This document shows, in pieces, positions 18,181 to 56,500 of a DNA stretch of 64,000 nucleotides (position 1 is its first letter; each line of letters begins with the position of its first letter). The position numbers and the translations under genes are program-made. Source of the stretch: Owenia fusiformis. Lineage: Eukaryota; Annelida; Polychaeta; Sabellida; Oweniidae. The notes beneath the pieces are model-generated. The model was not told the DNA's origin. It searched no databases and saw only the letters and a list, made by a program, of their open reading frames with translations. The stretch covers positions 23,313,375-23,377,374 of the forward strand of contig CAIIXF020000005.1 in assembly GCA_903813345.2 (NCBI GenBank), written 5' to 3'.

Positions 18181-21100
18181 ATGAAGACGTTCTTCCTATT
18201 ATACTTAGGTAAGTTATTCTGATTGTTTAAACTTTTCATCATCAAATAGCAATTTGTAAAAATAAAATACCATCTTGAATGAAAATCATCTGAGCCACTT
18301 TATGGCAATCTGTTAATTTAAAATTGGTTGGTTCTGTTGAAAGTCAGTATGAATCTGATTATTTAGATGATAAATTTTCAAAGTAACGTTGTGTCTAGCA
18401 AGGCCACCTTTGTGCCTGGATTTCCATTAATTGACAACCTCACATACTGGCAAAATTCTACAATGAAAGTCATATACATGATTTTGGTTCAACCAATGTT
18501 CAAAAAATGTTTTTCTGAGCTCATTTAATGTTTTCCTTTTGGCCACAGTGTCTACCTTAGGTTTAATAAGATTCATTGCTTTTTCACAACAAGTTGATGG
18601 TTGGGGGATGGGACTTTCACTTGTAAAATGCTACATGTATATGGATTTCCTTATTGTGATATTCATTGTGATATTCCATTAATTTTTCCCTTTTTAGTTT
18701 GCAGTTGTAGTGTTGTGAATGGTCTAAGAAAGGGGTGTTATAGTCTTGGATCCATTGTGGCATGTTTCATACCTGTGTTGGAAGGTGTTACTGAGTTAAC
18801 AGAGAATGATGTCCTCAGTGGTGCCAATGATGAGATAACAGCCATAAGAGAAATATGCAGGTAAATATACAAGTATTATTGTTTTTAGCTCACATGTCCA
18901 TCTGTCTGTAAACAATAAGTTACTTGGTTTAAAGCTTGGGTCAGTAGGGTTCCCATTTTAAGTTATTTTGGTTCATCGTCAATACAGAACCCCCTTATGA
19001 ATCCCGTTTCAAAAGCTTGCCTATTTTCAAAATGGCCACCAATTTAGTTGCAGAAAATTCACTTTTCGACCAATTAGCTTTATAAATAATTTCAAGTGTC
19101 CTACATTGTAAAAGCCCATGTCACTGTAAGTTTTATGAGATAATTTTGTGAAAAATCAGCAAAAATATCTACATTTTAATTGTCAGCCACTTTGGGATTT
19201 CCATCATAAAATCTTGTCTATGAAGGCTTGTCTACAGGTTTCAAGCAAATCCTCTTTTGATATGATTCTAGATTTACGTTACTTATGTTAATAACCAATT
19301 CAAGAAAATCATATGACACCTAGTTCAAAAGCTAGGCTATTTTCATTTTTGTGCAAAAATCACTTTTGGCCATTTTCAGTTGGGGAAAATTTACTTTACT
19401 ACTATTTAGTAGCCTTATAAATAATTTCAGATCCTGTATTGTAAAAACCTATGCTACCGTGAATAGTAAGTTTATGTAAAAGAAATCTGCAAAATTTACA
19501 TCATGTGATCCCAGTACCCACTGTACTATTTATGTATTGACGTGTCGCAAAAAGGTCGCACACGCATTGTTACACATTTTCGCTTTTTAACACCACAAAA
19601 TGTGACGTTTTTTGAGAAAAATGTACACATATGGAAATCCTTTCGTCCTCCACATTTGCCTCTATATCTCAAAATATTTAAGGCGAATAACTCTGATATC
19701 GTATATGTATTAACAATGGGATAGGAGCATCATAAAATACGAATCAATTGATATTTTAGGTGAAATAAATATACGTGTTGCTGTGCTTGAAAATAGGCGA
19801 ATGGCGTAAGTTAGCCCTATTTTAATGAATTTTGAAAACCTTTCGTCCTCCACTTTTCCACATACAACGGAAAACACATACTTTTGCGAACAAAATCAAC
19901 TATTTATTAATAAACTAGAGTTTAAGAGCAAAATAATCATATATGATTTATTAAAAATTGATCTCGTATTTTTTGTTTAATGTACACCTGAAAAGTTGAA
20001 GGTAACAAAAAATGAGCAAAAAGGTCGCTGTCAACAGATTCTATTTTTCAAATTCTATGACGTCACAATATGGGATGCTTACTAAAATTCATCCTTTGAA
20101 ATAAAACTTCCATCTTCTTTTATCAAGACGAAAATAAGTATAATAGTCATATATTGATTGAGTTATGAGCGTTTAAAGACGAAAAATAATACAAAATGTA
20201 ACATGTCAACAGGGGATATTTGCAAGATGTTTTGGTAAAAAACTCTTTTTTAAAAAAGAACGCGCAAGAATCGTGAACGGAGTGTAGTTGATCTAAAAAC
20301 GTCATCGAAACAGCTTTAAAATGATATATAACTTTAATTAGAATATTATCTTATAATCCGGAGAATCAAAGTTACATTCACGCGATACCCTTAAAAAACA
20401 AATGCGCCACCTTTTTGCGACACGTCATTGAGTTTTAGAATTTGTCTTGAGGCCAGTTTGACCATCAATTTAAGCATTTCGTGTGTTTCCTCCTTCACAT
20501 TTGGTATTTTATGAAGCAACTGGGCAACAGGGTAATATATTAGCAGGGCATTTAGTTATGACCAACATGCTTGAACATAAGATGGATGTCAGAAACAGTC
20601 TGTCCAAATGAAATTGCTTGGTACAACAATGTACTTTACTGGATAATGTGAATTCATTGCAGCTTGTATGAAAAAGGAATGAAGTGTCTTAAAGAAAAGC
20701 AGAACACGTGTGAGCCTCCCACAAAACATGAAAATGAACAGCTGAACATATTCTTGGAACAGGTAGTTCGCCAAGGAGTCATCAAATTCTGTGGAGAAGA
20801 AAGAGTTATGAATGGTAATATATATTTATTTGGGTTAACCCTTCTTAATTGCTCCATACTTCTAAATGTTTGGTATATTTCAATATACTAGATGCGAGTA
20901 GAAATAATCCTGATTTACTTCATTAAATATTCAAAATTCAGTTAAACCCATGTCGTGGAATAGTTAATTTTCTTTGGTATAACGAAACATATGAGTTAAA
21001 AAATAATTTATGAAGTATTCTTAGTGTTTTTATGAAAAATAGCATGCTCCCCCAAGCTGGACAAATCTTCCGATCACTGGGCATGAGCATGGCGTATTAT

Positions 21101-22804
21101 TAATGTTCATTTTTCTTCAAAACTATATTACAGCTTATATAGTGAATGCCAAATGCCTGTTTGACAATCAGAACTACACTCAAAATTGTTTGGTGAGAAC
21201 TCAAAAGGCTTTCAAACATGTGAAGATACAAAGTGAATTTTCTACATCAAATGATGGTTCCATGGAAAAACTTTGCAGGTGAGACTTTACATATGTGATT
21301 GATTTCAATGTTTAAAGTACGTAGACGTATACGATAACATAAGAGGTGCGGCTAAAGTATAAAAAGAAAAAATCCCCGATTAGTGTTATGGGCAAGCCAT
21401 AAAGGTGTTGAAAAAACATCATGTGTGGATTTTGAATGTAGATGTAACCACATAAGTTACATTACTGAAATTTTAAATAACTGTTGTGTAAATTCTGAAT
21501 ATCAACTTGTTTGGTCGCTAAGAATGAAATGGCCCATTTTGATTATGCTACGCAGGGAACTTTACTTCCATTGGTGTACACAAAAATACAATATGTACAT
21601 GTGTTGAACAGCTTTATTATCCCAACAAATGAAGTTCAGTAGGGATATAGTGAAGCCCTTCATCCATCAGTCAGTCAGCCAGTCAGTCAGTCAGTTACGG
21701 GAAATTTTTTTTTCAAGAAGCCACCAGTTTAAAAATGGCGGAAATTTATCTATCTATTTCAACACCTATCTATTTCAAATATATCCCATGTTTTTCACCA
21801 TGACCCCCAGGGGCCGTTTGGGGGTTCGGACAGAAATTTGCATTAATTTTTAGATGTCAATGAAGTATAGCTTTATTATACTCAAATGAAAGGCAATTTA
21901 GAGTAGTTTGGGATTTTGCAATTATTTTCTGATCTCTTAAAAGTATGGCCATATTATACTCAAATTGAAAGAATTTTAGAGTAGATGGCTACCTAGAGCG
22001 GAAATTCGCCATTAATTAGAGCTATCTTGAAAGTATGGTTACATAATACTACAATGCGCTCAAATATTTATTGAAGGGAAGAGTAGATAGTAAATATTAC
22101 ATTGTAATTGTACAGATTCATGATTTATATAGTGTTAGTTGGGATTTGCTACTCTGTGGAGTTGCCATTTTCTAGTTTTGTATTTGAAGGACTTGCTGTT
22201 TTGTACAGGATTACATCATTGCTTAATACTCAACCATAAAAACAATTCTAAGGATGGAATCATTACATGGCATCCAATGTAATCAAGAACTTATACATAT
22301 AATCATTTTTTTATTTATTGTTTTTTCTATTTTTCCCATGATATATTTTAAAAGTATCCTAAGTTTTGGAGATATTCTTATTGTTTCCTGATAATCTAGT
22401 GTTCAACATGTGATCATGCTGTTACCTAAAACTTTGAGAATTTTACTTTCTTCACTTTCAGGATAATCACAAAAATGTTCAAATGTGGATCTGAAGCCCT
22501 GGAAAATCGATGTGGAAAACAAGCTGGTCAGTTATTTGTTCGTATAGCAAGTGACTTTCTTCCTCAGGAGATCACAAATAAGTGTATAAAAGGTGGCTAC
22601 ATTCCTGCTTCAGTTCTTACAGGGCAACATAGAATAGCCACAACTATGTTTATGACATCATCATCAGTTGCATCCAGCACTTCTGGTTGCTCAAATCTAA
22701 AAACATTGACCAAATGGCAATCGTGGACTTTATTTTACTCTGCATTTTTGTGCATATCAATAGGTATTTGTAATTTATATGTTGCATTTATGTATGATTA
22801 TTGA
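18181..22804 (+). CDS. secreted/membrane-tethered protein with two six-cysteine domains, family not recognised
   Basis: Five exons splice in frame to 276 residues plus stop: 18181-18208, 18698-18860, 20663-20814, 21134-21278 and 22462-22804; all introns are GT-AG. Residues 1-18 (MKTFFLLYLVCSCSVVNG) are a signal peptide. Two tandem domains follow, with cysteines at 23, 32, 63, 72, 80, 107 and at 122, 133, 162, 171, 180, 204. Spacings are 8-30-8-7-26 and 10-28-8-8-23. In both domains an intron in the same phase (after TGC AG) falls directly after the third cysteine, so the gene grew by duplication of a two-exon unit. A Ser/Thr-rich spacer and a hydrophobic end (about 250-276) suggest membrane or GPI anchoring. 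The six-cysteine helical pattern recalls extracellular families such as the nematode T20D4.11-like (DUF19) domain, but I cannot name the family. Function unknown. Confidence 0.75.
18885..19500. repeat. dispersed repeat A copy in intron 2 of the six-cysteine gene
   Basis: It starts with CATCTGTCTGTAAACAATAA and contains TTTCAAAATGGCCACC, shared with 23236-23260. Within it TTATAAATAATTTCA, then ATTGTAAAA, then TGTAAGTTTA-like strings occur twice (about 19080-19170 and 19410-19490), so it is internally duplicated. Confidence 0.55.
19538..20427. mobile_element. 890-bp TIR element (TGACGTGTCGCAAAAAGGT ends)
   Basis: The termini are perfect 19-bp inverted repeats (19538-19556 and 20409-20427). GCAAAAAGGTCGC recurs inside (about 20016-20029) as a subterminal copy of the end motif. 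CCTTTCGTCCTCCAC is directly repeated at 19639 and 19841. No long open frame is present (best 60 codons), so the element is non-autonomous. The target duplication is unclear: ATT borders both sides, but a longer duplication is not visible. It sits in intron 2 of the six-cysteine gene. Confidence 0.85.
21625..22100. repeat. dispersed repeat A-like copy with (AGTC)n
   Basis: The segment AAGTTCAGTAGGGATATAGT is close to 23055-23072 (AAGTTCAGAGGGATATAG). It is followed by a CAGTCAGTCAGCCAGTCAGT run (about 21667-21695). It lies in intron 4 of the six-cysteine gene. Confidence 0.6.
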
Positions 22805-24674: not shown

Positions 24675-25424
24675 AGAATGTATATTTTTAAATTCCATGT
24701 TCTTATATTGGCTGAAATTTGATTTATCATTTGTGTGAATGTACAAAACAATTATTATTTGTATGGTTATGTCATTCTCTTAGAATTCCTGCATTACAAG
24801 CAGTGCAGCAATGTAAATAAAAGTAAATAAGAATAAATTGAAGAGGTATGATTGGGTATTATCTCAAGAGAACAGCTTCTGTTTCCTCAATATCCTTTGC
24901 TAATTAGACTGCTAATTGGATTGACATAATTTTGTTTGTTTGAAAAAGGTTGTGGATAAGCAATCAACAGGATGCTCTTCAGTAGTGTCCAAGTATGGTT
25001 TTCCTACAAATGAACCCATTTTTCAAACTCAATTCCATCTCCATATATTTCATGTAACCTTTCAGTACGATCAATGTCTGATTCTCATTTATATATTCCA
25101 ATAAAGGGTTTGATATTGTGCCTTAAATGGTATTCCTTGATAAATCTACCATTCTTAACTCAGCATATTACAATATGACCCATACTGTATATATTATATT
25201 TGAGGGACATGATATCATATTACTTCTTGATTTTGAATTATATAGCTGGACATGTTAGTTTGGCACATTAACTTTTAGATGCTCATTGTAAGGTTTGAAA
25301 TAAGGATCATAAGGTGTGAAATTCTAAATACCAAAATTTAAACAAGTGGGGACTATAATCTAATGTAATAGTACACAGATGATTATTGTTGGATGTTGTA
25401 TTGTCAAGCAGATTCAGAATCAAA
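24675..25424. other. upstream region of the stabilin-like gene
   Basis: No element or clear promoter seen. A TATA-like string (GTATATATTATATT) at 25187-25200 is about 230 bp before the ATG and is not a strong candidate. Confidence 0.4.
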
Positions 25425-25875
25425 ATGTTTCATCAATTTTATATCATTGGGATAATATTTACATGTGTGATAATTGTATGTATGGATTTTGCTAGAGCGC
25501 AAACTAGTAGTACTAACAGTGGCAGCAACAACAGCAACAGTACAAAAAACAGATTTTGTTATAAATATCAGAACATAGAATTCCGGTCAACTTATTGTGT
25601 TTATCCTTGTCGGTATTCAAAAAAAAGTTGCCCACGAGATTCTGTTCAAACAGGTCGCCAAGAGGATTGCCATGTAGTACAGGAATCAGCATCTAGATTT
25701 TCACGTCCTTTTGATCTTCTATATAATCATGATCTACTATATCCCATATGGAGACGTCTACAACAACAAAATCCCCGTCCCAAAACGGAAGGAATGTTAG
25801 GGTGTCGACATGTATGCAGAAAGAAAATGCGGGTAATGGACTGTTGTGATGGCATGTGGGGTGATCAGTGTGAGG
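25425..25875 (+). CDS. stabilin-like exon 1: signal peptide and N-terminal Cys module
   Basis: 150 residues plus one base. A hydrophobic signal ends at an ARA|Q-type site. An S/T/N-rich stretch with several N-glycosylation sequons (NNS, NST) follows. The Cys module has CYKYQ, YCVYPC, GCRHVC and finally CCDGMWGDQC, the CC-G-W/Y-G-C signature before the first EGF repeat of stabilins. Donor G|GTAAG. Confidence 0.8.
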
Positions 25876-28800
25876 GTAAGTGTTTGTATTTATTAGACAG
25901 CTTTGTATAGCATTGGGTGTTCCAAAAAAAGTGAACCTCTTTTCTCAGCAATGGATAAGCTGAATTCTTTGAACGTTTTTTTTGTGGAACTAAATGAAAG
26001 ACATTGGTTACTTAATATCTGAGTATTTTCAGATAAAAAAAAACACGGTATTGCAAAATATCCAATATCAATGGAAAAGTCACTTATTTCAGTTTGAAAG
26101 TTACTTTCTGTTTTTCCAAGCAGAAATGCTTTTTTGTATTTCTTTCAACAATATCGCTTCCCATGACATAATTAATCCTGTCCTTAGTGACAGGATTAAT
26201 TATTTGTCATTATTTATCACTTTTTGGGGACACCCAATACAGTGTATGTAGATTATATACTGCAGCTATGTAAATATAAAACCTTATTATGTTATTCTAA
26301 AATATTCATTATAGTCAATTAAATATTCTTGTTGAATTCGTAAAAGGAATGACACACATTCCCTTCCAAAGCAGAAATTTTTTTAATTGCAGACTGTCCT
26401 CAAACTAATGGCGAGGTGTGTTCAAACAGAGGCACTTGTTCAGATGGCATGAAAGGGGATGGGACTTGTCATTGCATGGTAAGACATTTCACTTTTTGTA
26501 AGAATTAAATTCAAATAAACTCAAGATTTTATGAGCTGATGCCTTACATACAGGCTGTTTCGAGATGATTGCTGAATTCAAAATTGCCAATAAATTTTTA
26601 CAAGAAAAATAATTTTTCTGATAAGACATTAAAAGTTGTTGAATCTGGATTGTCAGATCAGGGAATTCTACTTAAGATGGAATCTCTACCTGGTTATTAT
26701 TTCTATGATCTGAAATGTTAAAAATGATTAATGGTTTGATAAAATATTTTTTGTTCACTGGGATTTACTTTTAGCTATTTTCTTTATCGTTTTAGATGAC
26801 TGAAAGTAGAGGTTATAAGACATACATGTATATTAATTATAATCCATACTGTCAATTATTAATCAGAATTGACAGAACAGGCAACACCTTTGTTAAGAAT
26901 TTCTCACTTTATTGCATGTTATATATTTGAAGATTTGCAAAACTCTTGTAATTTGAGTTGACTTATTAACTTTAAGTTAATAAATTTTTCCTAAATTGAA
27001 AATCTGGTAATGTTATTTCAGTCTGGCTTTGGAGGGACTGCATGTGAAATGTGTAAACATAACAATACATTTGGCCAAGAATGTTCTCAAGGTTTGTTGT
27101 CTGCTCCATGTTGCATATGAATATATCAATGTTGCATTTGAATATATCAATATTGCATATGAATATATCAATGTTGCATTTGAATATATCAATATTGCAT
27201 ATGAATATATCAATGTTGCATATGAATATATCAATGTTGTATATGATATCAGAATAGAGCAACTTGAGAAATATCAATTATGAAAGGAACTGTTGTCTAG
27301 CTGAGATTGATGTACATGATACTTTGTACATTTATTAGTGTTGCCTTTTGTCATTTGAGTGTTATGCCCAAGTACAAGTATAAGTACACTCTATATATAT
27401 TTTCATTAGAATTGATAAAGGGAATATCCCTTAAAATTATGAGGACTATCATGATATAAACCAAAAGTCAGAACTAATTTTTAGATGCATAATCATATCT
27501 TGCGAATTTGAGAGTTGAATTAATTTTGTTTTGACATATTTTCAAACTTATCCTCTACTTGCTCATATCCAATCCAGCTGTTAGATTGAATTGATGCATT
27601 TACATAATCATTGTTTATGCTTCCAGTTTGTGCATGTATCCATGGGGATTGTGACTCAGGTTTGAATGGTACAGGGAAATGTGATTGCCACTCTGGCTAC
27701 ACTGGCGAGATCTGTGATCAATGTAAGTTGTGTAACACATAACCTTGTAGATGCAGTTTTATCAGATCTGATTTGTATGATGTTTTTTATTGTTTCTTTT
27801 TGATTTTATTATTGTATGATGTTTTTTAATTCGTATTTGTAGAATTAACATCAAGATCTTTTACATCTCAATTGTATAATTGTTTGCTAGATTTCTGTTT
27901 GTATTATATTAATGCTTTGAATGTTTTTGTCTTTCAATCCTAAGAATGGTTTGTTGTTTGAAATGTTGTTTGATGGATCCAGGAATAAGTCTAACACTAT
28001 CCATTTTGTAATAACCATTCTACTTACCATGTAATTCCATAACAATATCCATGTTTCATTACTTAAATGGTTATTGTTGTTACAGTGATTTCAGGATGTG
28101 CTAATATCACTTGCCATGCTTTAGCCAAATGTGAATCTAAAGGAGGGAAGGCTGTTTGCAATTGTAAACATGGTTATGAGGGCAATGGAACAGAAGTTGG
28201 TGGCTGCACACGTATGTTATACTTCATATTGTCCTAATGTTTTGTTTATAGATACCGCATGAATGTATGATGTTTTTTAATTAGCATTTGTAGAATTGTG
28301 GTATGATACACATACAGGACATGTAAAATTATGAAATTATGTAGTGTTGCCTCGATTTTGTAGAAAGGCCTTATGTAGTATGACAGGCCTATACTAGAAA
28401 ACTTATTTATAGGTCTCTCTGATACATCTTGTTGCTAAAATATTATAAAACTGATACATATAACACATATAACAATTAATCAGATGAGTATTCTAATCTG
28501 TATGTTTTTTATTCTCAACATGAAATTTCAAATGAAAGTAAATGAACCATATACATTGTCAATCTTCTGCTCTAGCAATCAATGCTTGTGAGAGGTCACC
28601 ATGCCACGACAAAGCTCTATGTACTAATACTGGCCCAGACATGTATAAGTGTGATTGTTTAAAGAACTATGAGGGTGATGGGAAGTATTGTCAACCAATC
28701 AACCCATGTGCAACAAACCATGGTCAGTGTCCTAGAAATACTACTAAGTGTCTCCATGATGGACCTGGATTGGTAAGTTAGCAATTTTAAATCAACAACA

Positions 28801-31800
28801 TCCATGTAAATGTTGATTGTAATAAAAAAAATCCAGAATATGGAATTTGAAAATTTAACTATTATACCATTAACAATATAGTAAACATTCAATGATAAGA
28901 AAACAAGCCCCAACATCCTACCTGTGATTATTAAACATACAAAGAAGCATTGTCAAATGAGACTCGATCAACAGAGAAATCACTAGAACATAATTCAAGA
29001 ATCAATAACACTAGTTATCAAATCAATTAATAAAAGTAAATTAAAAGTAAAAGTAAATTGTATATGATTATTTTTTTCATGCTTTTTGTAATACTCTACT
29101 CTTTCCCCTTGGACTTACATATTTACTTAATACATATAACATGTTTATGAAATTAGAAAACTGCAAAGTCAATGATTTATGCCACAATAGCTATGATATT
29201 TATTCATATGCTGCTGATATAAAAATGAGAGCAAACAATGATTAAAAATTGTATTTATTTTTAAAATTAGCACCACTGTGAATGTTCATTCGGATATGAA
29301 GAATATATAGATGGCATTGGATGTAGCTTGATCGATATTTGTCTGACAAATAGCAGTGATTGTGACAAGAATGCCAATTGCACAACAGTGGCCCCAAATG
29401 TAATGAGGCAAGTTATTTTTTTGTATTTCAGTAAAATGTTTGAAGGGTGATACATAAATAGAACTTTTCCTAGGCAAGCGAAATCATTTTGTTACATGCA
29501 ACATCAATTGCTATGGCAGCTCAGAAAAGGGCTTAATGAAACAGTCAATGATCGAGTGTTCAGAATGCTTGTAAATTTTGCTAAATTGTGAAAATTACCT
29601 ATTCAATGACATTTTATAACATATAAAGCTTTTCTGGTTTTAATGCTTGCCCACATGATATCCTAATGTTTTTTTTTAGTTGTACATGTAATGACGGTTA
29701 CTTTGGTGATGGATACTACTGTTATGGAAACATTTTAGAACGCATCAAGGAGATTAATCTTGAGGATACCTCCTATGCTCAAAAACTGACTTTCTCAGAA
29801 AATCTATTTAGTACTGTATACCCAGAGGGCTTGCAATCAAAGGGGCCATTTACGGTGTTTGTACCACTGATAAAGCCATACTTCAGTGATATCTCAACAA
29901 GCAGAAAGGTAAGCTTTGGTATGATTTTCAAAAATATTTCAGTGCAGTGACTGAATTCTATTGTTTTATGTCATCACCAAGAAGTGAAATATATCAACAG
30001 CCACCATTTTGTGACTGGTGTTTGACATTTGTTGCCAGCAGCATTGACTTCTGTGGTTATCACACTTTGTCATATTAACTGGTTAGTTAATGAAGATATT
30101 TCAATTCTAATGAACTAAGACATCTCTTCATATCAATAACTATAACTCACATGTTATAGTGCTGTATTAAAAACATTGGCAGGATTTTGGAAAGAATGCT
30201 TAAACAACATTCCACACTCTTAGTCCTTTATGATTGCTTCAGTCAATCAAGAATTGGTTCAGGAATGTAGTAGATGTAATGTTCTTTATGTTTCTTCAAA
30301 CAAATATTTTAGCTAGCTGAATTTCTACGTGAAAGAGAGTTTGGACAAAGCCTTGCTAACACAAACATTGTTCCTGGAATTCATGCAGTCGAAAGTCTGA
30401 AGAACAAGTCCAGTTTCTACTCTTTGAGTGGCACCCCTGCACAGATTTATGTTAAAGAGGTCAGTTGTATTTTAGTCTGGACTTGTGTTTTGGTATGTCC
30501 AAAAGTTGGCCATTATTCTCATTATATGAATATTCTGACAGTATATATTTTCTTATTTCATTTTTTATGTCACCACCAGAAGTGGTGATATACATGTATT
30601 GTTAAGTCTCCAACTTTTTGTGCATGGTGTTTGGCTGTCGGTGTTTGGAAGTTGGTGCTTGGTGGTGAACATCTGTGAAAAATGGCAGGTGGTGGCATTT
30701 TGCATGTTAATGCTTTGTACATTGTAGCACTAATATGTATAGATGTAATCTGAATTGAAATATTTTGTGACAGTTGTTGGAATATTGCCTTTTTTGTGGT
30801 TAAGGAATGTACAATTGTTAGAGGCACTTGCCTTTCATCCTTTACACTAGCTGGGTTAAGTTTTGAAATGAAGTGGTTCATTGTTTGGAGAATTGTATAT
30901 ATCATGTTATAGTATTTATAATATATTATACAAATATTGATCCTTTAGCCCAAAAAAGCAAGTTATGCAAGCTAGATCCTCAAATATTAATTTAAAAATT
31001 GATCGATATAATTTTAGGATGATGTAAGATATCGACTTCAAGGTCAAAGTCAGGCTGATAAGGTGACAATTCTAGCAGGGAATTTTCAGGCTTCAAATGG
31101 ACTGATTCATATTGTGGATAAATATGTTCTTCCTGTAAGTATTCATTGATTTTGACAAAATGCTATATTATAGTGTATTCTTTTATTGCACTGACATATA
31201 CTGGTTCAAATAATTGATCGGTTGGCAAGCATGCACAATGTAGCATGGCAACCAAAAGCATGTTAAAATTATTTGCTTGTTGACGCAAAAAAACTGGGCC
31301 GAACAATCTTGAATAATTTTTAAAATGACAAAATAACATTATTATTTGAATGCACATATTTTCACTATTCAAAGGGCATTTAGAAAGTGGGCCCATGTTA
31401 TTTTACTGGTGAATGATGGGAGTGAATACATGTAGTCTGTTGAAAACCCATGGTATGAGTAATTCCCAAAATGTTGATATGAAATAATACTTCGCAGAAT
31501 TGTCCAATAAATACATAGAATATTGGTTCAATGATTGAAGGGGATATGTTTGTTTCATTCTTAGTTATTCAAATTAAAAGACATTTAATATATTGGGAAG
31601 CAGTTTTTCTTATCATATTCAGCTGAAAAGAAAGCATTTCATTCTAAATCTAATTCAATATCTGTGGACCTTATTTCTAAATCTGTATGTCATCATTATT
31701 GTTCCGTTAGGGCCATTCTTGTAAACTAAACAAAATATATGTTGCTCTAAGTTGAAATATAATTGTTTTCAGACTGGTAGAGATGTGTCCTGGTTCAATT

Positions 31801-34800
31801 CTCAATCAAAGGTGAGCATTTTTAAGGAGAAGCAGTCTTAGCCTCTTTAATATTTAAAAATATGCATAGTTTCAAATTACTTTAAAAAGCAGCATAATAA
31901 ATTAAATATAAAAATATAGTACTGTTGATTAAAAATATATTTGAATACTTTTTTGTTTTTTATGTAATATTATTCTTAGTGATATTAAATATAGACTAAA
32001 CTTAACAGATACACATAAAATACACAAATCAACATGAACATAAAGTACATAATATTATTTTATTGTAGAAAACACTCACTGAAAGCATCAAAAATGATGG
32101 AAAATATAACAGATTTGAAGCATTGTTAACTGTGAGTGTTTATAGTGTTTATGTAATTTCAATTATTTTACAATTTAGAGGCACTTTATATAAGAACTTA
32201 GAAATAGAAACTTAAGCTGCCTGGTTATAACTTATAGTATCATGAACAAGTTCATCAAAATGGAATGATTTGATAATGAATATTTTTTTTTTTTATTTGG
32301 ATTTGTAGTTGGAACAAATTGTACTTACCTTTTAATAATTTTTATGTTGTAGGCTGCTGGATTTGGTGACTTCTTGTCGGGGACAGGGCCTTACACTGTA
32401 CTTGCTCCAAATAACAAAGCTTGGGATAGACTACCCAAGGATTACACACAGTACCTGTATTCACCAGAGGTTTGTTTTCAGTTTCTGTCTTCAGTTTAAA
32501 TTCGTTTTTTGTGATTGCAGATGGCGGCTGGCGGCTGTAACAAATTCTCACAACTTCCAAACAAATACTGTTTAGACTGACTTCAAAATTCTTCTACAAG
32601 TTCTCAGAAGGTCAAAGCTGACTTTAGATTTGAGATGTGACCTTCACTGACCTTCTCAAGGTCAAAAAGGGTTAACCAGGCTAACCACTTGATGGATTGA
32701 TTTCAAATTGTCAGGGATGATTCCTTGTATGAAAATCTAAATCCAATTACTTTTGGGCATTCTTGATTAAATGTTAAGGTGACCATTTGGATGTTTTGTC
32801 CTAAAATCTTGTTTCTTCAACTGATTAATGTCATGCATTCAGGATTATAAATCTATAGAGTATCTCCCATTATAATTTGAAATGAATGTCAAAATGTGAG
32901 GAACTTATAATCATATATTAAATGCCAGAGTAAATGCTTAACATCCTTTAGCTTTCTGAAAATATTTCATAGGGTAAGGATAAGCTGATTCAGCTGCTGC
33001 AGTGCCATATAATGAATGATACCATTCGTGCAATAGACTTAGTTTCTGGGATGCAATCTACATTTACCACCATTGGGGGAGTGATGCTCAATGTACAGAT
33101 TCAGACACAGGTAAAACTTGGATTTATATAAAGATAGAGATGGGAGGGGCATATTCATTGTCACGCATTGTTATTTTCCTGACCCGAATTGCAAATATAA
33201 GCCTTTGGGAAATTGATACGCTATGCAAATTATATACATATGTACATGTCACACTCATATTTGCCAAATGTGGGACTGCATCTCAAGGTACAACGGAAAC
33301 ATAATTGTAAAGAGTAAAAGGCCTTTGTGTGTAAACCATTGCTTCTGGAGCACAAATATGCTACCTCTCTCAGTGTATAAAACTTAAATTGCAGACAATA
33401 CAGTTGATAAGGCAGATCAACTTATAACAATCATTGAAAATAAGAGGAGCTTGAATTAAATCATAATGTACATATTATGGAGCCATAACTCAAACCTTTA
33501 TTCTTATAACTATTTTGGTCCTGAACATGTCTATAAATTTTCAGTAATTCAATTTCAGTTCAATTCAATTGTTTTCATCATTTGTAAATATCATACACTG
33601 ATAGTATACCATAAGACACCCAGAGGATTGCTTATGGATACATGTACGAGGGGTGATTCAAAAGTAATGGACAAAATTTTATTAACTAATTGCAAATACA
33701 TTTTGAGATAGAGCACTTCTCTTGGATCATGGTGCATACACCCGGAATCCATTTTTAAGGCTATTTTCATCATAATAACAAATGGATTTTCAATGAAAAG
33801 TTTGCTGGTGCAATATATTTTGCAATGCAAGATGTATATGAAAAGCATATCGCAGTAAGTTCAATAATAATCCATATCATTCCTTATTATTCCTGATGAT
33901 CATTCATTTGAATTATATTCAATCCTCAGTGTATTCTCCTCCAAGTTCAATTACTTTCTTCTGTCGGCGCACCCATGCAGAGAACACATGCCCAAATCCA
34001 TCCAGCAGCCATGGTGTTCAGCTGTTTTTGTACAGCCATTTGCAGCTCAGCTAATGTCTGAAAGGATTGTCCCTTTAATGCCATCTTAAGGGTGGGAAAA
34101 AGATAGAAATCACAAGGAGCAGTATCAGGGCTATATGGAGCATGTGGAAGTTGAGGCATGTCCATGAATGCTGCAAGAGTATCCTGAACTAGCTTGGACC
34201 TGTGTGCTGGGGTATTGTCCATGTGTAACAAACGATTGTCTCTTGTGTCTTTCCTTTTCTTTTGAAGTGCCTGTCCAAGATTGCATTCTAGAACCTGAAA
34301 GTGAAATATCATTATTTATTTATTCATTCATTTATTTATTTATCTATTTTCAAATTATTAATCTTGCTTAAAGCTATTATGACTTCATTCTCTCCTTTTA
34401 AATTGACAATGATTAAAACGGATGAAAATATCATGTTTACCTTGGTGAAGTATTTCCCTGTGATAGTCTGATGAGGAGGAACATAGTGGGTCAGGATCAC
34501 GCCATCATAATCGAAGAAGGGAACAATCATCACTTTGTCAGAGGATCTGCTTTGCCTAGCCTTTGTTGGGCGCCGCTCACCCTTTTTGATATACTGTGTA
34601 GATTGTAGTTTAGTTTCTGGATCTCTAAAGTATAGCCATGATTCGTCAGTAGTGATTATACGCTTTAGGAATCCTTCTCCTTCATTGTTGTATTGCTTCA
34701 GAAAATCCTGCGCAACTTCGACACGTTGTTGCTTTTGTTCTTCGGTAAGAAGCTTAGGAATCCACTTGGCATACACCCTTTTCATATTTAGGTCGCATTT

Positions 34801-36305
34801 TACATGTGAGTCTTGCTTGACAATTGCATTACCATGCTTGTTAGACATATCATGTGTGGTAATTGAGTCATTAAAACGAAATCAAGCAAAAATGACAAAA
34901 ACATTCAATTATCATTAAAAAACCAATTCCACCCATGCTTACCCTTGTTACCATGGTTACACATAGCTGAAACAATTTCAAATGCATTTAAATGAGAAAT
35001 CGACACAAAGTAGAGAATTGATTGATCTATTCACTGTGAAAAAATTAGACTGATTGGGTGAAATTTAGTATGCCTATAAAATTCTGTCCATTACTTTTGA
35101 ATCACCCCTCGTACAATGTATGTGTCTGGTTTAACAGAAATGAATTATAACTTTATTGAGACTACATTGTAAAGCAAGAACCTATATCATAAATATACAT
35201 CTACTATGTCATTAATGTTAAAATCCAGGGCCTTATCACCATTGAGCAAGATTCTGCAATCGTGGAGAGTGACATACCAGCAAGCAATGGTATATACCAT
35301 CATGTGAATGGTGTAATAATGCCTAAGGCTATTCTTCCATTACTTCCAAGTAGATGTGACATTGATAATACAGTAGTTGTAATGGGAAAATGTGGACCTT
35401 GTGATGAGCCACTTGTCTGTAGATCAAGACATGATGTTTCAACAGTAAGTATTATGTGCTTGTACTCCTTTTTATTGCTCTATTGTTTTTGAGAAGATGA
35501 TTGCCATTACTTCAGTGATCTATACATAAAATGTCATATGTTGAGATCTTTTTATTTCTATTAATCTTGATGACCTGATGTTTGATTTTCTTAGCCTTTA
35601 CTACTGTATATATTGTTTATATAATCTGAGATTTTTCTGGTTTGCAGAATAAAACCAAAGGAGGGTGCAGGTATTGGGGTAAAGTGGGTCAAGGTCAATA
35701 TCGGGCTTATATAGGATGCTATGTTCAATGTAAACGATCATATACCATCCTTAAATGCTGTCCTGGGTTCTTTGGAACAGATTGCATGCCTTGTCCTGGG
35801 GGGTTCAAGACCCCTTGTAACAACAATGGGAAGGTATATTTTTATTTTTTTAATGAATATGATAAAAATGATTTATTTTAGAATAATGCATACATAGTAT
35901 ACTTTCTTAGTTGAATTAGTATCCTGGGTGATAAAAAGCATGATTAAAACTACTGATCTTGTAACTTGGTACGGATGTTCCCCAAATATTATATAAGATT
36001 AATGACTCAAGTATTTGATTTAACAAAATCATGGTTGCCATGGTAACCCAATACATTAACAAGACACACTCACTGCTAGGGATTCATATTCTTAATAAAA
36101 TTTTTAAAGAAATCACAGTCAGAATAATTACCACTGTGGATAGAAATCCACATTAGATTATGTTCACAGATCTTTAATTTTTTACTGCAGTGCCTAGAGG
36201 GGATGTATTCAGGCAATGGTACATGTATGTGTGACGTAAATTTTCGTGGTGCAGCTTGTCAACTCTGCAAAAAGGACAACAAATTTGGAAAAAACTGTGA
36301 TCAAA
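25425..36305 (+). CDS. stabilin-like EGF/FAS1 receptor, 5' part (17 coding exons, 3' incomplete)
   Basis: Exons: 25425-25875, 26393-26478, 27022-27091, 27627-27722, 28086-28211, 28576-28772, 29271-29407, 29680-29908, 30313-30459, 31018-31134, 31773-31811, 32069-32131, 32353-32469, 32973-33110, 35229-35444, 35648-35833, 36191-36305. They join without a frame break into 843 residues. Order: signal peptide (1 to about 25), Cys module ending CCDGMWGDQC, EGF repeats (about 151-404), FAS1-1 (about 405-552), FAS1-2 (about 570-715), second Cys module (CCPGFFGTDC) and EGF repeats (about 720-843). This is the layout of the N-terminal half of stabilins, scavenger and adhesion receptors that also carry further EGF/FAS1 units, a Link domain and a transmembrane segment. 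Exon 17 ends in phase 1 at a good donor, so the protein should continue, but no next exon was found. The start is the first ATG of the frame and directly opens a signal peptide. Confidence 0.85.
25913..26237. mobile_element. short TIR element in intron 1 of the stabilin-like gene
   Basis: The ends TTGGGTGTTCCAAAAAAAGTGA and TCACTTTTTGGGGACACCCAA are imperfect inverted repeats of about 22 bp, in the style of Tc1/mariner termini. A perfect inner hairpin (ATTAATCCTGTC / GACAGGATTAAT) lies at about 26170-26200. There is no coding. A TA follows the right end but the left flank reads CA, so the target duplication is not clean. Confidence 0.7.
26393..29407 (+). CDS. stabilin-like exons 2-7: EGF-repeat block
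   Basis: Six exons (residues about 151-387) encode successive EGF-type repeats. Recognisable signatures are CSNRGTCSDG...GDGTCHC, SGFGGTACEMC, CIHGDCDSGLNG...CDCHSGYTGEIC, CNCKHGYEGNG, CDCLKNYEGDGKYC and CECSFGYEEYIDG. Intron phases run 1-0-1-1-1-0-2. Introns between these exons are 0.3-0.6 kb and, apart from the 21-bp minisatellite, hold nothing recognisable. The block probably mediates ligand or cell contacts as in stabilins. Confidence 0.85.
27108..27247. repeat. 21-bp minisatellite in intron 3 of the stabilin-like gene
   Basis: The unit TTGCATATGAATATATCAATR occurs about 6.5 times. Copies alternate between CATATG and CATTTG and between GTTG and ATTG starts, so a 42-bp double unit is visible. 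Because 21 is a multiple of three, it makes false repeat proteins in three frames (VAYEYIN on +). Confidence 0.95.
29408..29679 (+). other. GC-AG intron (intron 7 of the stabilin-like gene)
   Basis: The exon ends ATG AG and the intron starts GCAAGT, the strong GC-donor consensus AG|GCAAGT. The acceptor is TTTTTTTTAG at 29671-29679. Only this donor keeps the frame: the nearby GT (AAT|GTAATG) would give TTG TAC ATG TAA after splicing. Confidence 0.85.
29680..31134 (+). CDS. stabilin-like exons 8-10: end of EGF block and FAS1 domain 1
   Basis: Exon 8 finishes an EGF repeat (CTCNDGYFGDGYYC) and opens FAS1 with the typical L/F-S-x-L start and GPFTVFVPL. Exon 9 has TNIVPGIHAV, and exon 10 ends SNGLIHIVDKYVLP, the H2 region of fasciclin-1 domains. 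All three introns are phase 0. Length about 148 residues, normal for FAS1. The domain is expected to act in cell adhesion or ligand binding outside the cell. Confidence 0.85.
30566..30720. repeat. dispersed repeat B copy in intron 9
   Basis: It starts TTATGTCACCACCAGAAGTG (partly palindromic: TCACCACC..GTGGTGA) and contains ATGGCAGGTGGTGGCATTTT, shared with 14390-14415. A related start is at about 29968 (ATGTCATCACCAAGAAGTG). Confidence 0.6.
31773..35444 (+). CDS. stabilin-like exons 11-15: FAS1 domain 2
   Basis: Five phase-0 exons. Exon 12 has SIKNDGKYNRFEALLT, exon 13 GTGPYTVLAPNNKAWDRLP (H1 region, TVLAP-N-AW), exon 14 LLQCHIMND and exon 15 SNGIYHHVNGVIMP (H2 region). About 145 residues, a normal FAS1 length. 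Exon 15 then runs into a Cys pair (CGPCDEPLVC). The intron between exons 14 and 15 is enlarged to 2.1 kb by a mariner element; the one between 13 and 14 carries repeat B at 32518-32690. Confidence 0.85.
32518..32690. repeat. dispersed repeat B fragment in intron 13
   Basis: GGCGGCTGTAACAAATTCTC, then CTGTTTAGACTGACTTCAAA, then ACTGACCTTCTCAAGGTCAA align in order with about 16630-16795. Confidence 0.75.
33900..34848 (-). pseudogene. mariner transposase remnant (catalytic domain only)
   Basis: The first segment, 34848-34441, encodes 136 residues with the clamp/linker motif WIPKLLTEEQKQ and the first catalytic Asp in TTDESWLYFRDPETK (residue 68). The second segment starts at 34294 with LECNLGQALQKKRKD, has the second Asp in LLHMDNTPAH (162) and the third in APYSPDTAPCDFYLFP (198). 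By my count 35 residues separate the last two Asp, against 34 in Mos1. The frame is lost near 34015-34000 by a one-base shift: the mariner-like ending WVRRQKKVIELGGEYTED is in the next frame, while the open frame stops at 33947. The N-terminal DNA-binding domain of about 100 residues is absent; the 230 bp before the ATG do not encode it in any frame. Not functional as it stands. Confidence 0.85.
34295..34440 (-). other. intron-like insert within the mariner transposase
   Basis: On the minus strand the coding sequence reads ACCAAG|GTAAAC and resumes after TTTCACTTTCAG|GTT. Removing 146 bp joins the two transposase segments exactly in frame at the point where other mariner transposases are continuous. 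The insert has several stops and an A/T-rich tract. It behaves as a spliceosomal intron or a splice-site-flanked insertion. Confidence 0.6.
35648..36305 (+). CDS. stabilin-like exons 16-17: second Cys/EGF module
   Basis: Exon 16 holds GCRYWGKVGQGQ...CYVQCKRSY and the CCPGFFGTDCMPCPGGF signature. Exon 17 has CLEGMYSGNGTCMC and NFRGAACQLC..NKFGKNC. In stabilins this module follows the second FAS1 and leads into more EGF repeats. Exon 17 ends CAA A|GTAAGT in phase 1. If the donor is not used the frame stops at TAG 36395-36397, giving a short Lys/Arg-containing tail. Confidence 0.8.
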
Positions 36306-36527
36306 GTAAGTTTTTTTGTTTTCTTTCACAAAGAAGTAGAAATGCATACAATATAAAACAGTTTATTGTACAATGTAACATCTGCCATCTATTTTAGATT
36401 AGACAGATACTGTATTCTACATCCATCGATTGCAAGATATTACTATTGCATTGATTTAAAGATGGCATTCGATTGTAGATTCAGGAATGGACAATGAAAA
36501 GGGCTCTGGGTTATTTTCCTAAATATA

Positions 36528-52362: not shown

Positions 52363-53556
52363 TCACACTGAGGTGTCCCTTGTACTTGTATACACATAGG
52401 AAAAATTTCTGTTGGAGCTTCTTACTGTATTATGCTCACTACTAAAGATGCTGTGGTAGTGATTGGAGCATTTCTGAACACAAACGATCTTTTTAAATGT
52501 TTGCCAGAATTTCTCACTGAACCAACAGTACAAAACAAAGTTAACCGCAGATTTAATAGTGATAAGGAGTTTGGAAACCGACATGAAAGTGAACAAGGTA
52601 GGTGTAATGGTGTTGATAATCCTTGTTTTGTTGAGGTTAAATAGACTAGTGAAGATGACCATAGGAGCTTGACAAATGAAAAAGACAACAATAACACTTA
52701 TCAACATCAGTGTGATCTGAAACTCTTCTTTCTGGATGCTGTTGTCACTGTCATTAAGAGTATTACGGCGCAGGAAACTGCTTGACCTCCTCACTTCACA
52801 AATGAGATAGACATTGAGCACAACCAGAAGAATGAAAGGGAGGACAGTGAAGAGAAGGCCATCTATGATACTCGTATAGATGACCATATAAGTAGCATTG
52901 TCAAACAGTTCAGTATTCTTAACATGTACAAATGTTATGTTGGTTAATGGATCAACTTCAGTCATAATCTGGAATTCAAAGAAACTTGGAATTTTGATGA
53001 TGATTGAAATAGCAAAAATGAGGCAAATGAAGAGGATAGCCCTCTTTACTGTACACATCAACCTTGCAAAAAAAGGTTTACATATCGCAATGTAACGTTC
53101 AACTGCCAGCATTACTGTCACCCAAACTGATGAAAAAAGGAACATGTTCATCACAATGGAAGCAATATGTAAATAAGCTCTGATATAGCTACTTGAATTG
53201 TTTATGAATGCTTTATGGCCAATAAGTATAGTTGAAAGAATCACTAAGAATAAAAGGTCTGCAACTGCTAATGCAGTTAGATATGTATTTGTGGAAGTGA
53301 CCATTGACTTTCTACTGAGCACAATGAGGGTGAGAATAATACCACATATACCAAAGACCACAATTACAGGCAGAATGTGGTCTTCAATAATCGACTGAAC
53401 TTTTGAATGGGTTTCATCTAAATTTGAACCTTCAGATACTGGTAAAACTGAATGATTATAGTAATTGTCATAGTTTTCGTAATAGTCATAGGATTCAAGT
53501 TCTGCTGGTAGGTTCAGAAATTCTGAGCTATTGTATCCTGTTAAGTTGTACTCCAT
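52363..53556 (-). CDS. rhodopsin-class peptide GPCR, FMRFamide-receptor-like, intronless
   Basis: One uninterrupted frame of 397 residues. Seven hydrophobic segments: about 61-83, 91-113 (LAVAD), 126-152, 172-194, 224-253, 282-305 and 316-344. ERY (153-155) stands for DRY, CQAP (295-298) for CWxP and NFVLY (339-343) for NPxxY. The NF-x-x-Y form, TELFDNATYMVIY before TM5 and the PFFARLMCT loop resemble FMRFamide/peptide receptors expanded in lophotrochozoans. The N-terminus has sequons (NLT, NSS, NHS) and a Tyr/Asp/Glu-rich run at 22-33 that could be Tyr-sulfated. C359 and C363 may be palmitoylated. The C-terminus DTSV fits a class I PDZ ligand. The Cys pair linking TM3 and extracellular loop 2 is absent from both positions. 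The start ATG has an in-frame TGA 39 bases upstream. The ligand cannot be told from sequence. Confidence 0.9.
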   Translation of the reverse strand: MEYNLTGYNSSEFLNLPAELESYDYYENYDNYYNHSVLPVSEGSNLDETHSKVQSIIEDHILPVIVVFGICGIILTLIVLSRKSMVTSTNTYLTALAVADLLFLVILSTILIGHKAFINNSSSYIRAYLHIASIVMNMFLFSSVWVTVMLAVERYIAICKPFFARLMCTVKRAILFICLIFAISIIIKIPSFFEFQIMTEVDPLTNITFVHVKNTELFDNATYMVIYTSIIDGLLFTVLPFILLVVLNVYLICEVRRSSSFLRRNTLNDSDNSIQKEEFQITLMLISVIVVFFICQAPMVIFTSLFNLNKTRIINTITPTLFTFMSVSKLLITIKSAVNFVLYCWFSEKFWQTFKKIVCVQKCSNHYHSIFSSEHNTVRSSNRNFSYVYTSTRDTSV

Positions 53557-56500
53557 TGTGATAGTTGTGCCAGTATAGGTCAGTATTGCTGTTCACAGTC
53601 TCTTATGCTTCAAAATGGTTTATTGATGCTTTCATCATTCCTACAAGTGTCAGTCTATTGGGCTTAAATTGTACTCAAGATGTTTATTATTCAGATCTGT
53701 AATACTTTAACTTGGTTCTCTATGGTTGTTATGGTTGTTTTCATTCTCTCAGTACTTTTTCTCATATTGCTTCTGATGCTCTTATCCCCTGGGTCTCCTA
53801 TTCATGAACTGCCTGTAAAGTTAAATTTGCTTATATTTATTCAATATTACAGTTAATCAATTTTATATTTTCCTCTTTTTCAGTGTGTTAATTAAATGTT
53901 TTTTATATTCAGTTCCTTGAACCTTTCTCACATGTTTCTCACTAAGCTATAATGTGTGTCCATGGTAAGATTTTAATAAAGGTCTGCAAACTCATCAATC
54001 TGAATTGATGTCACGATGTTGTATTAATCAGTGCTAATCTCATTGGAATACTGTTTTCAGTCTTTGTTTTCATATCTGCATTCCCCATCATTTATCATGT
54101 ACAATTTGAAGTAGTTTATTATATTCTTGCACTTCTCTAAAATTTAGATTTTGCAGACCTTTGTTGTTTCTTTGATTCTCTAGAAAGTGCACTCCTAAAT
54201 TGTATTTAACATCCCAAAACACAACTGTTGCATTTTACTTGGGGGTATATAATATATAATGGAGCTGAATTGTTGTTCCGTAATGTGTTAATGGGCCCCA
54301 AGCCGGATACTAATGATTTAGTCTATTTGTTCTGTCACTTGTCTTTATTGATATAGATGAACATACAGTGATATATAAACTGTACTGGAAAGTGTCTCCT
54401 CTGGGCAATGTACATTTATTTTGATAGAAGGAATATCACATAATATACCTATTTTTCATTCTTTTGTGATACTTTGTCATGAACTGCGCCTTCAGTAACG
54501 TCTCCAGAGATACTTATTAGTATGATGTATTTTGACTCTCTTTAATGGAACAGTTAATTCACAGCTGTATGTCACATAGTTGCTGCAGCACTATAAATAT
54601 GGTCACCCCCAGGATCTCAGTTGGGAGTAAGTGGTAGTTTAACTTGACTTGATCCAATGATGCTCACGAGTTGCTCTGCGAGACATCAATCTGGAAATAC
54701 AAAATGTGATTGCTGTAGCTGTTTATCGAATTGTTGGTTTATCATTGTGTAATGCGCATTATACTTGGTGACAGATTTCACGATATGCATCTTAATAAAG
54801 ATGATTTAAGATGATTTAATTAAGCTAAATTAGATCACTTCTTGAATTGCTTACTGAAACTGAAAAGACACTGAGTGAAAGTGGAAATGTTGTAAATGTT
54901 AGTGTAGTCAGTCCTCGGGCCCCAAAAAGGTGGTTGTTTACCTGGAGGCCTAAAAGTAAATTTATGATAAAGTGTATATATTTTTATATTAAAATGGCCA
55001 GATATTGTCATTTTAAAATGATCAGGACATAATTATACTTCATAATCAAACAAAAAATGGTGTCAATGACTTTTCTTTTTATTTAAAGCTATAAATTATT
55101 TTGATCCCCCACATTAGGGAATATGAAAGTAGGGGATTAACACACTTTATTATTTCCAAAACTGAATGACAGGATTTTTTCATTCATGCACGTTGGAAAG
55201 TTAAATGAATAAAATTAATTTTAAGAAAGTAAAATCATGGTTACTGACTTGGTTTTTTTTTATTGTTTTTCTCAATTCTCAGGGGATACTATTGTAGAAT
55301 GTCTTGGAATGAGGTTTCTCTATAATATCATCTTACATGGATTCTCATGAACTAAGATCTTGGTTGGAAAGTGATCCATTTTGGCCATTCTAAGGCATGG
55401 TACTTGATTTTCTCAACTGGGGTAACAAAGATGACCTTTAAGGCAAGAAGTCTATTCATATTTTGTTTATATTCCAATTTAAACTATTCTATATCTAATT
55501 CTTGGGTATTTTTGGTATTTTGTTGCATCATGTCATTAAAACCACATCGGACAACACACTTTCTTCTATACTGTGATGATGCATACAGTTACCTTTATTT
55601 TCCATTTCAAAATTACTGTCTCTCGAGACTCTATATAATTGGAGCCTTGAAGCCTAGGGATAGCTACACTCATTTAGAACATTTTCAATTACATCAAGTG
55701 TAATAAGAGTTTTATCAGCAATTTGTATGTAAAATGGTTGATATGAATATATAGGCTATGAATATATTATTAGAATGCAATAAGCTTTATATTTGTTGTT
55801 ATATACAATTTTCTTTGGAATTATATGTTATTCAATGATTTGTTCACAGATCACACCAAATTGTGATATGATAGCAAAACAATAGTTTGATTGATTAAGA
55901 ATTGTTACATTATTGGTCAATTTCACATCAGTTTTGCATGTTTCACCTATTATAATCGTCCACTTGTCTGTCCCATCTGCCTGTCAACACATGGGTAAGC
56001 TAATTCAAAATCCTCAACTTTTAAAATGTGAGTATTATCCATGTAGCATCTTCAACTGTCCCATAAGTTGCATACCGAAAGCTTGCCTTCTTTTACATTT
56101 TTTATTGTGGAAAATCAAGTTTTCAGCTCCACACTCCATGTCCATCATTTTGCTTAAAATTGCCCAGGTGCATTAATAATGTGATCAATAATGTCTGCAA
56201 GTTTCTCAAAATATATTACAAAGATTTAAAATGGCTACCATTTTATTGGTGAAAATCAGGTTTTCACATATTTTGGTCATAACTCCATAGCTATCCCATC
56301 AATTTGCTTCAAAATTGTAATTGTACAGATACCTTAATTTATAGGTTATCAATAATGTCTACAAGTTCATCAAGATTTTATATTGTCGAAATATCACTTC
56401 CTAGCAAAATTCTGTAATGGCCAATCAAGCCAATCAGTATTTCACAGTCTTATCAATTTCTTTATTTTCATTTTGCTATTCATAAATGCACGATTTAACC

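Follow-up and report, generated by a model that had tools for sequence, protein, structure and literature searches.

What does the five-exon gene predicted at positions 18181-22804 (+ strand) of this region encode, how did the two halves of its product arise, and does it have recognisable relatives? The whole stretch of Owenia fusiformis DNA analysed here, 64,000 nucleotides long, is called the window, and the answer we favour as probable is that the gene would specify an extracellular protein with two probably helical domains in tandem, each with six cysteines, built by duplication of a module and remotely related to the Pfam families CPG4 (PF15481) and DUF1397 (PF07165). The first of these is chondroitin proteoglycan 4, a nematode protein, and the second presumably represents the 27-kDa haemolymph glycoproteins of insects.

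Joining the five exons gives an uninterrupted frame of 276 amino acids with a start codon, a stop codon and no internal stop, and all borders are of the GT-AG type (donors GT in 4/4, acceptors AG in 4/4), which bears out the complete protein proposed in the initial annotation. The intron phases along the gene are, in order, 1, 2, 1 and 2. The features of the locus are:

18181..18208, + strand: exon 1, carrying the start codon and most of a putative signal peptide (MKTFFLLYL, judged by eye) and ending at a phase-1 donor, GTAAGT
18698..18860, + strand: exon 2, rest of the signal peptide and opening half of domain 1 (C23, C32, C63), re-found by the pattern scan described below; donor of phase 2, with the splice point at the C63 codon plus two bases
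19538..20427, + strand: repeat of 890 bp lying in intron 2 and bounded by 25-bp terminal inverted repeats; not part of the protein
20663..20814, + strand: exon 3, remaining half of domain 1 (C72, C80, C107) with a phase-1 end, also in the pattern scan
21134..21278, + strand: exon 4, opening half of domain 2 (C122, C133, C162), also in the pattern scan; donor of phase 2, with the splice point at the C162 codon plus two bases
21172..21180, + strand: possible N-glycosylation sequon N-Y-T in domain 2, residues 128-130, read from the translation
22462..22804, + strand: exon 5, remaining half of domain 2 (C171, C180, C204), followed by a linker rich in Ser and Thr, the hydrophobic C-terminus and the stop; also in the pattern scan
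22724..22801, + strand: hydrophobic C-terminal segment by hydropathy, residues 251-276, a putative GPI signal or single span with almost no tail

The repeat in intron 2 looks like a non-autonomous DNA transposon. It has at least 40 genomic copies, this one included (40 of 683 candidates were scored), and the 39 other scored copies are 91-97% identical and nearly all close to full length. As a separate observation, transposase remains that we assume to be mariner-like lie at 33950-34881 (- strand) in two open stretches, with matches to Transposase_1 (E 3.5e-10) and DDE_3 (E 8e-4, under its cut-off).

The cysteine frame and the introns recur in the two halves of the protein. Domain 1 has cysteines at residues 23, 32, 63, 72, 80 and 107 and domain 2 at 122, 133, 162, 171, 180 and 204, giving on the 276-aa translation exactly the spacings first described, 8-30-8-7-26 and 10-28-8-8-23. 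The intron that had been placed after the third cysteine in both halves is also there, and in each case it is a phase-2 intron that splits the codon right after that cysteine. Both modules, moreover, begin behind a phase-1 intron.

Pfam scans of this protein found no profile reaching its curated cut-off; the initial view that a family cannot be assigned can nevertheless be improved to a sub-threshold relation with CPG4 and DUF1397. CPG4 was listed for all six unaltered two-domain constructs with E values of 0.0088-0.18 (276 aa, 0.15; 214 aa, 0.18; 206 aa, 0.055; 186 aa, 0.012; 176 aa, 0.012; 175 aa, 0.0088), was the best or joint best match, and in 6/6 consisted of two stretches, one per domain. 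Residues 49-84 aligned to columns 17-50 and residues 132-188 to columns 1-52, so both domains fall within columns 1-52 of the 94-position profile; unlike in CPG4, the second half of the profile is unmatched, and the best unaltered construct (175 aa, E 0.0088) scored 17.0 bits against a curated cut-off of 32.7 bits. Placing domain 2 before domain 1 kept the match (E 0.0048). Cysteine-to-alanine changes in the 176-aa core acted on one or both stretches: C63A or C72A left only the domain-2 stretch, C133A or C180A left only the domain-1 stretch, C162A or C171A removed CPG4 altogether, C23A and C80A changed it little, and C107A and C122A raised it. The match appears to depend on the third and fourth cysteines of either domain and, in domain 2, on the second and fifth as well.

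DUF1397 behaved differently. Listed for two of the six two-domain constructs (176 aa, E 0.012; 206 aa, E 0.062) and absent from the other four, the unaltered 186-aa core among them, it scored 15.5 and 13.1 bits, respectively, below its cut-off of 25.7 bits. In both constructs a single stretch crosses the two domains in order; with the 176-aa construct it runs collinearly from residue 46 to 182 on columns 52-187 of 207, that is, 137 residues on 136 columns, and it is lost when the domains are swapped. Seven of the ten alanine variants of the 176-aa core also lost it (it was present for C23A, C80A and C180A), and some of the losses in the alanine scan may be filter effects, because the HMMER filters make listings near E 0.1 erratic. 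Any likeness to DUF1397 would lie in the collinear cover of both domains and in the loss of the match with most cysteine changes; on the other side stand the sub-threshold score and a hydrophobic C-terminus that is not known to be common to both.

Controls set the scale for these matches. Neither CPG4 nor DUF1397 appeared in any of 20 shuffles with the cysteines held in place (two sets of 10), and neither was listed for constructs containing one whole domain (0/5). Some other family was listed for 8/20 shuffles (3/10 and 5/10), the best being DUF4789 at E 0.027, and one shuffle matched DUF19 (PF01579) at E 0.3. Since several constructs were tried and 8/20 shuffles list some family, an E value of about 0.01 has to be read as marginal. 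DUF19, whose cysteine frame is similar to that of this protein, was not listed for the real protein in Pfam scans at E up to 10, in contrast to the one shuffled control. Weak matches to NgoMIV_restric, crAss_THA, DUF1496 and Dynein_AAA_lid were judged to be due to chance, and matches to solved structures (best E 0.46) were not credible. Among the matches listed in a search of open papers, no title or opening of an abstract described this protein or linked these families.

Closer relatives were sought in the same genome and beyond. Searching the 498-Mb genome with the whole protein and with each domain recovered no second copy in an exon-by-exon comparison of a kind that can miss diverged copies; besides this gene it returned two further matches, both weak (E 3.1 and E 2.0). 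The latter (L010) has two cysteines, eight residues apart like the third and fourth of the frame, and was set aside because the other four are absent. Searches of this genome with the family profiles gave two weak places for CPG4, one for DUF1397 and none for DUF19, none of them above cut-off, and none of the three families gave a match in the control genomes. The loci L005, L006 and L007 were rejected by eye as being without the cysteine frame, and viral contigs and prokaryote genome contigs held no relative.

Given these matches, the same gene with the same duplication could still belong to an independent, lineage-restricted family whose likeness to CPG4 and DUF1397 reflects convergent helical cysteine frames. 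Such an origin would fit the fact that every match stays under its curated cut-off, and the DUF19 and DUF4789 matches illustrate that frame and composition alone can yield weak listings. It accounts poorly, however, for the absence of CPG4 and DUF1397 from every shuffle, for the overlapping CPG4 columns of the two domains, and for a DUF1397 match of 137 residues on 136 columns that disappears on domain swap. From these comparisons we regard convergence as unlikely and a genuine though remote relation to CPG4 and DUF1397, short of membership in either, as rather probable.

We scanned both strands of the window for first-type exons (C-x7..11-C-x26..31-C with a donor directly after) and second-type exons (an acceptor, a cysteine at the eighth codon, x6..9, a cysteine, x22..27 and a cysteine). 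The only first-type exons were the two already known, ending at 18860 and 21278, and second-type exons occurred at the known positions 20663 and 22462 and at one stray position, 3586; 100 dinucleotide shuffles, one strand each, gave means of 0.0 and 0.29, respectively, with a pair in 0/100. The scan pattern was derived from this very gene, and the result is therefore a measure of rarity and not an independent discovery. The locus also holds six + strand open stretches of at least 79 codons, not all of which are exons of the five-exon gene, against a mean of 1.2 and a maximum of 5 in 500 shuffles.

Codon usage lends no such support. With training on 20 GPCR loci and both strands considered, the candidate scored -0.028 against a null mean of -0.029, and 48% of null draws were as high; in synonymous codon usage it is thus no different from other open stretches and scores lower than all 20 reference GPCR genes. 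A version of the test trained on one GPCR was uninformative. In the same 20-locus test, five open stretches of the adjacent EGF/fasciclin region scored -0.005 to -0.052, and because these are low too, the power of the test for genes of this kind is small. That region, at 25383-36391 (+ strand) downstream, has sub-threshold matches to EGF_3 (E 1.1e-4) and Fasciclin (E 0.0015); it is perhaps one modular extracellular gene, presumably of the stabilin type. In addition, an open stretch at 27011-27280 (+ strand) contains INVAFEY / INIAYEY repeats, apparently in tandem, and a rhodopsin-type GPCR occupies one open frame at 52366-53589 (- strand; 7tm_1, E 9.7e-31).

The lack of support from codon usage, together with a possible alternative donor (AG|GT) near 22764 within exon 5, would be compatible with a model that is partly wrong or a gene that is not expressed, through a missed exon, a different C-terminal exon or decay of the gene. 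Against this stand four canonical in-frame junctions, a start and a stop in place with zero internal stops, and a combination of cysteines and introns that shuffled DNA did not reproduce, and we consider an error of this sort improbable.

With the five-exon gene as the working model, several features support an origin of the halves by internal duplication of a two-exon unit: the repeated cysteine frame, the shared intron and its phase, the phase-1 start of both modules, and the placement of both halves on overlapping CPG4 columns. When 12 cysteines were placed randomly within residues 19-204, equally alike sets arose in 30 of 200,000 trials. Once the cysteines are set aside, the resemblance between the halves is not significant: 640 of 5000 segment shuffles and 499 of 2000 shuffles with fixed cysteines were as good, BLASTP of half against half gave E 0.14, and identity is 21%. 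The initial annotation had called the evidence for duplication strong, which is overstated at the level of residues. A single larger cysteine-rich region whose halves resemble each other by chance, with a coincidence of introns, would explain that lack of residue likeness, yet it is very improbable in view of the rarity of the spacing repeat, the agreement in intron position, phase and phase-1 module starts, and the CPG4 columns hit by both halves.

The phases also say what kind of module was duplicated. Class 1-1 modules are the type used in extracellular exon shuffling. Domain 1 sits between introns 1 and 3, both of phase 1, and since the modules start after phase-1 introns, exons 2 and 3 make up a class 1-1 module; domain 2 (exons 4 and 5) has the same start phase and internal phase and runs to the stop in the last exon. 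Like this gene, class 1-1 extracellular proteins have a phase-1 intron near the signal peptide and tandem copies, as described in a study in which the most-used modules are said to be mainly beta and to contain a negligible share of alpha structure (PMC8001218). By comparison with those mainly beta modules, the module described here looks mainly helical in fragment models.

These models were computed from single sequences of contiguous exon pieces and not from the spliced 276-aa protein, which makes them weak evidence. The exon 3 piece (20664-20813, second half of domain 1) is predicted to form helices at 2-13 and 21-43, with C80 in the loop joining the two (mean pLDDT 76, pTM 0.42), and the exon 5 piece (22463-22615) helices at 10-17, 19-32 and 35-43 with a short strand near each end (mean pLDDT 84, pTM 0.55). 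The region between the fifth and sixth cysteines is mainly helical in both; where the exon 3 piece has its first helix, the exon 5 piece has a short strand instead.

Read from end to end, the protein would consist of a signal peptide, two helical domains each held by what may be three disulfides, a segment rich in Ser and Thr, and a hydrophobic C-terminus with hardly any tail behind it. The N-terminus, MKTFFLLYLVCSCSVVNG, is signal-peptide-like by eye, N-Y-T is presumably an N-glycosylation motif, and residues 256-274 have a mean Kyte-Doolittle value of 1.75. Such a protein could be exported and then retained at the outer cell surface through its C-terminus, by a GPI anchor or a single span. 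The cell-surface location suggested earlier is made plausible by the hydrophobic C-terminus, which does not separate a GPI anchor from a short-tailed membrane span. Because the Pfam scans gave no credible match to an enzyme family, a role as a binding or coat protein, rather than as an enzyme, would be most likely.

The literature on DUF1397 and DUF19 proteins offers a further lead, and no more, towards an immune or barrier role. In Galleria, the 27-kDa haemolymph protein is described as having no known function and as being up-regulated after fungal challenge (PMC4224417), a 27-kDa glycoprotein precursor marks an oenocytoid blood-cell cluster of Bombyx (PMC8914287), a table of mosquito peritrophic-matrix proteins includes DUF1397 members (PMC5865745), and two papers on centipede venom list DUF1397 proteins, one of the papers giving them as of unknown function (PMC4379518, PMC5869384). 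DUF19, a large C. elegans family of putative secreted proteins, has 14 of 51 genes listed as up-regulated on infection in one study (PMC3534327).

On its own, a two-domain secreted protein of obscure function is a familiar kind of animal protein, and the helical class 1-1 module is the interesting part. If the remote relation holds, two families of obscure function and this protein would be joined under one fold, and the mainly beta modules of extracellular exon shuffling (PMC8001218) would gain a helical equivalent. We tentatively suggest, as a possibility on the doubtful side, that the module may be a building block of ancient animal origin, with six cysteines, a mainly helical fold, class 1-1 borders and a fixed phase-2 intron after its third cysteine, of which CPG4, DUF1397 and this gene would be scattered descendants too divergent for standard profiles. 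The intron after the third cysteine provides a simple marker with which common descent can be tested in other phyla.
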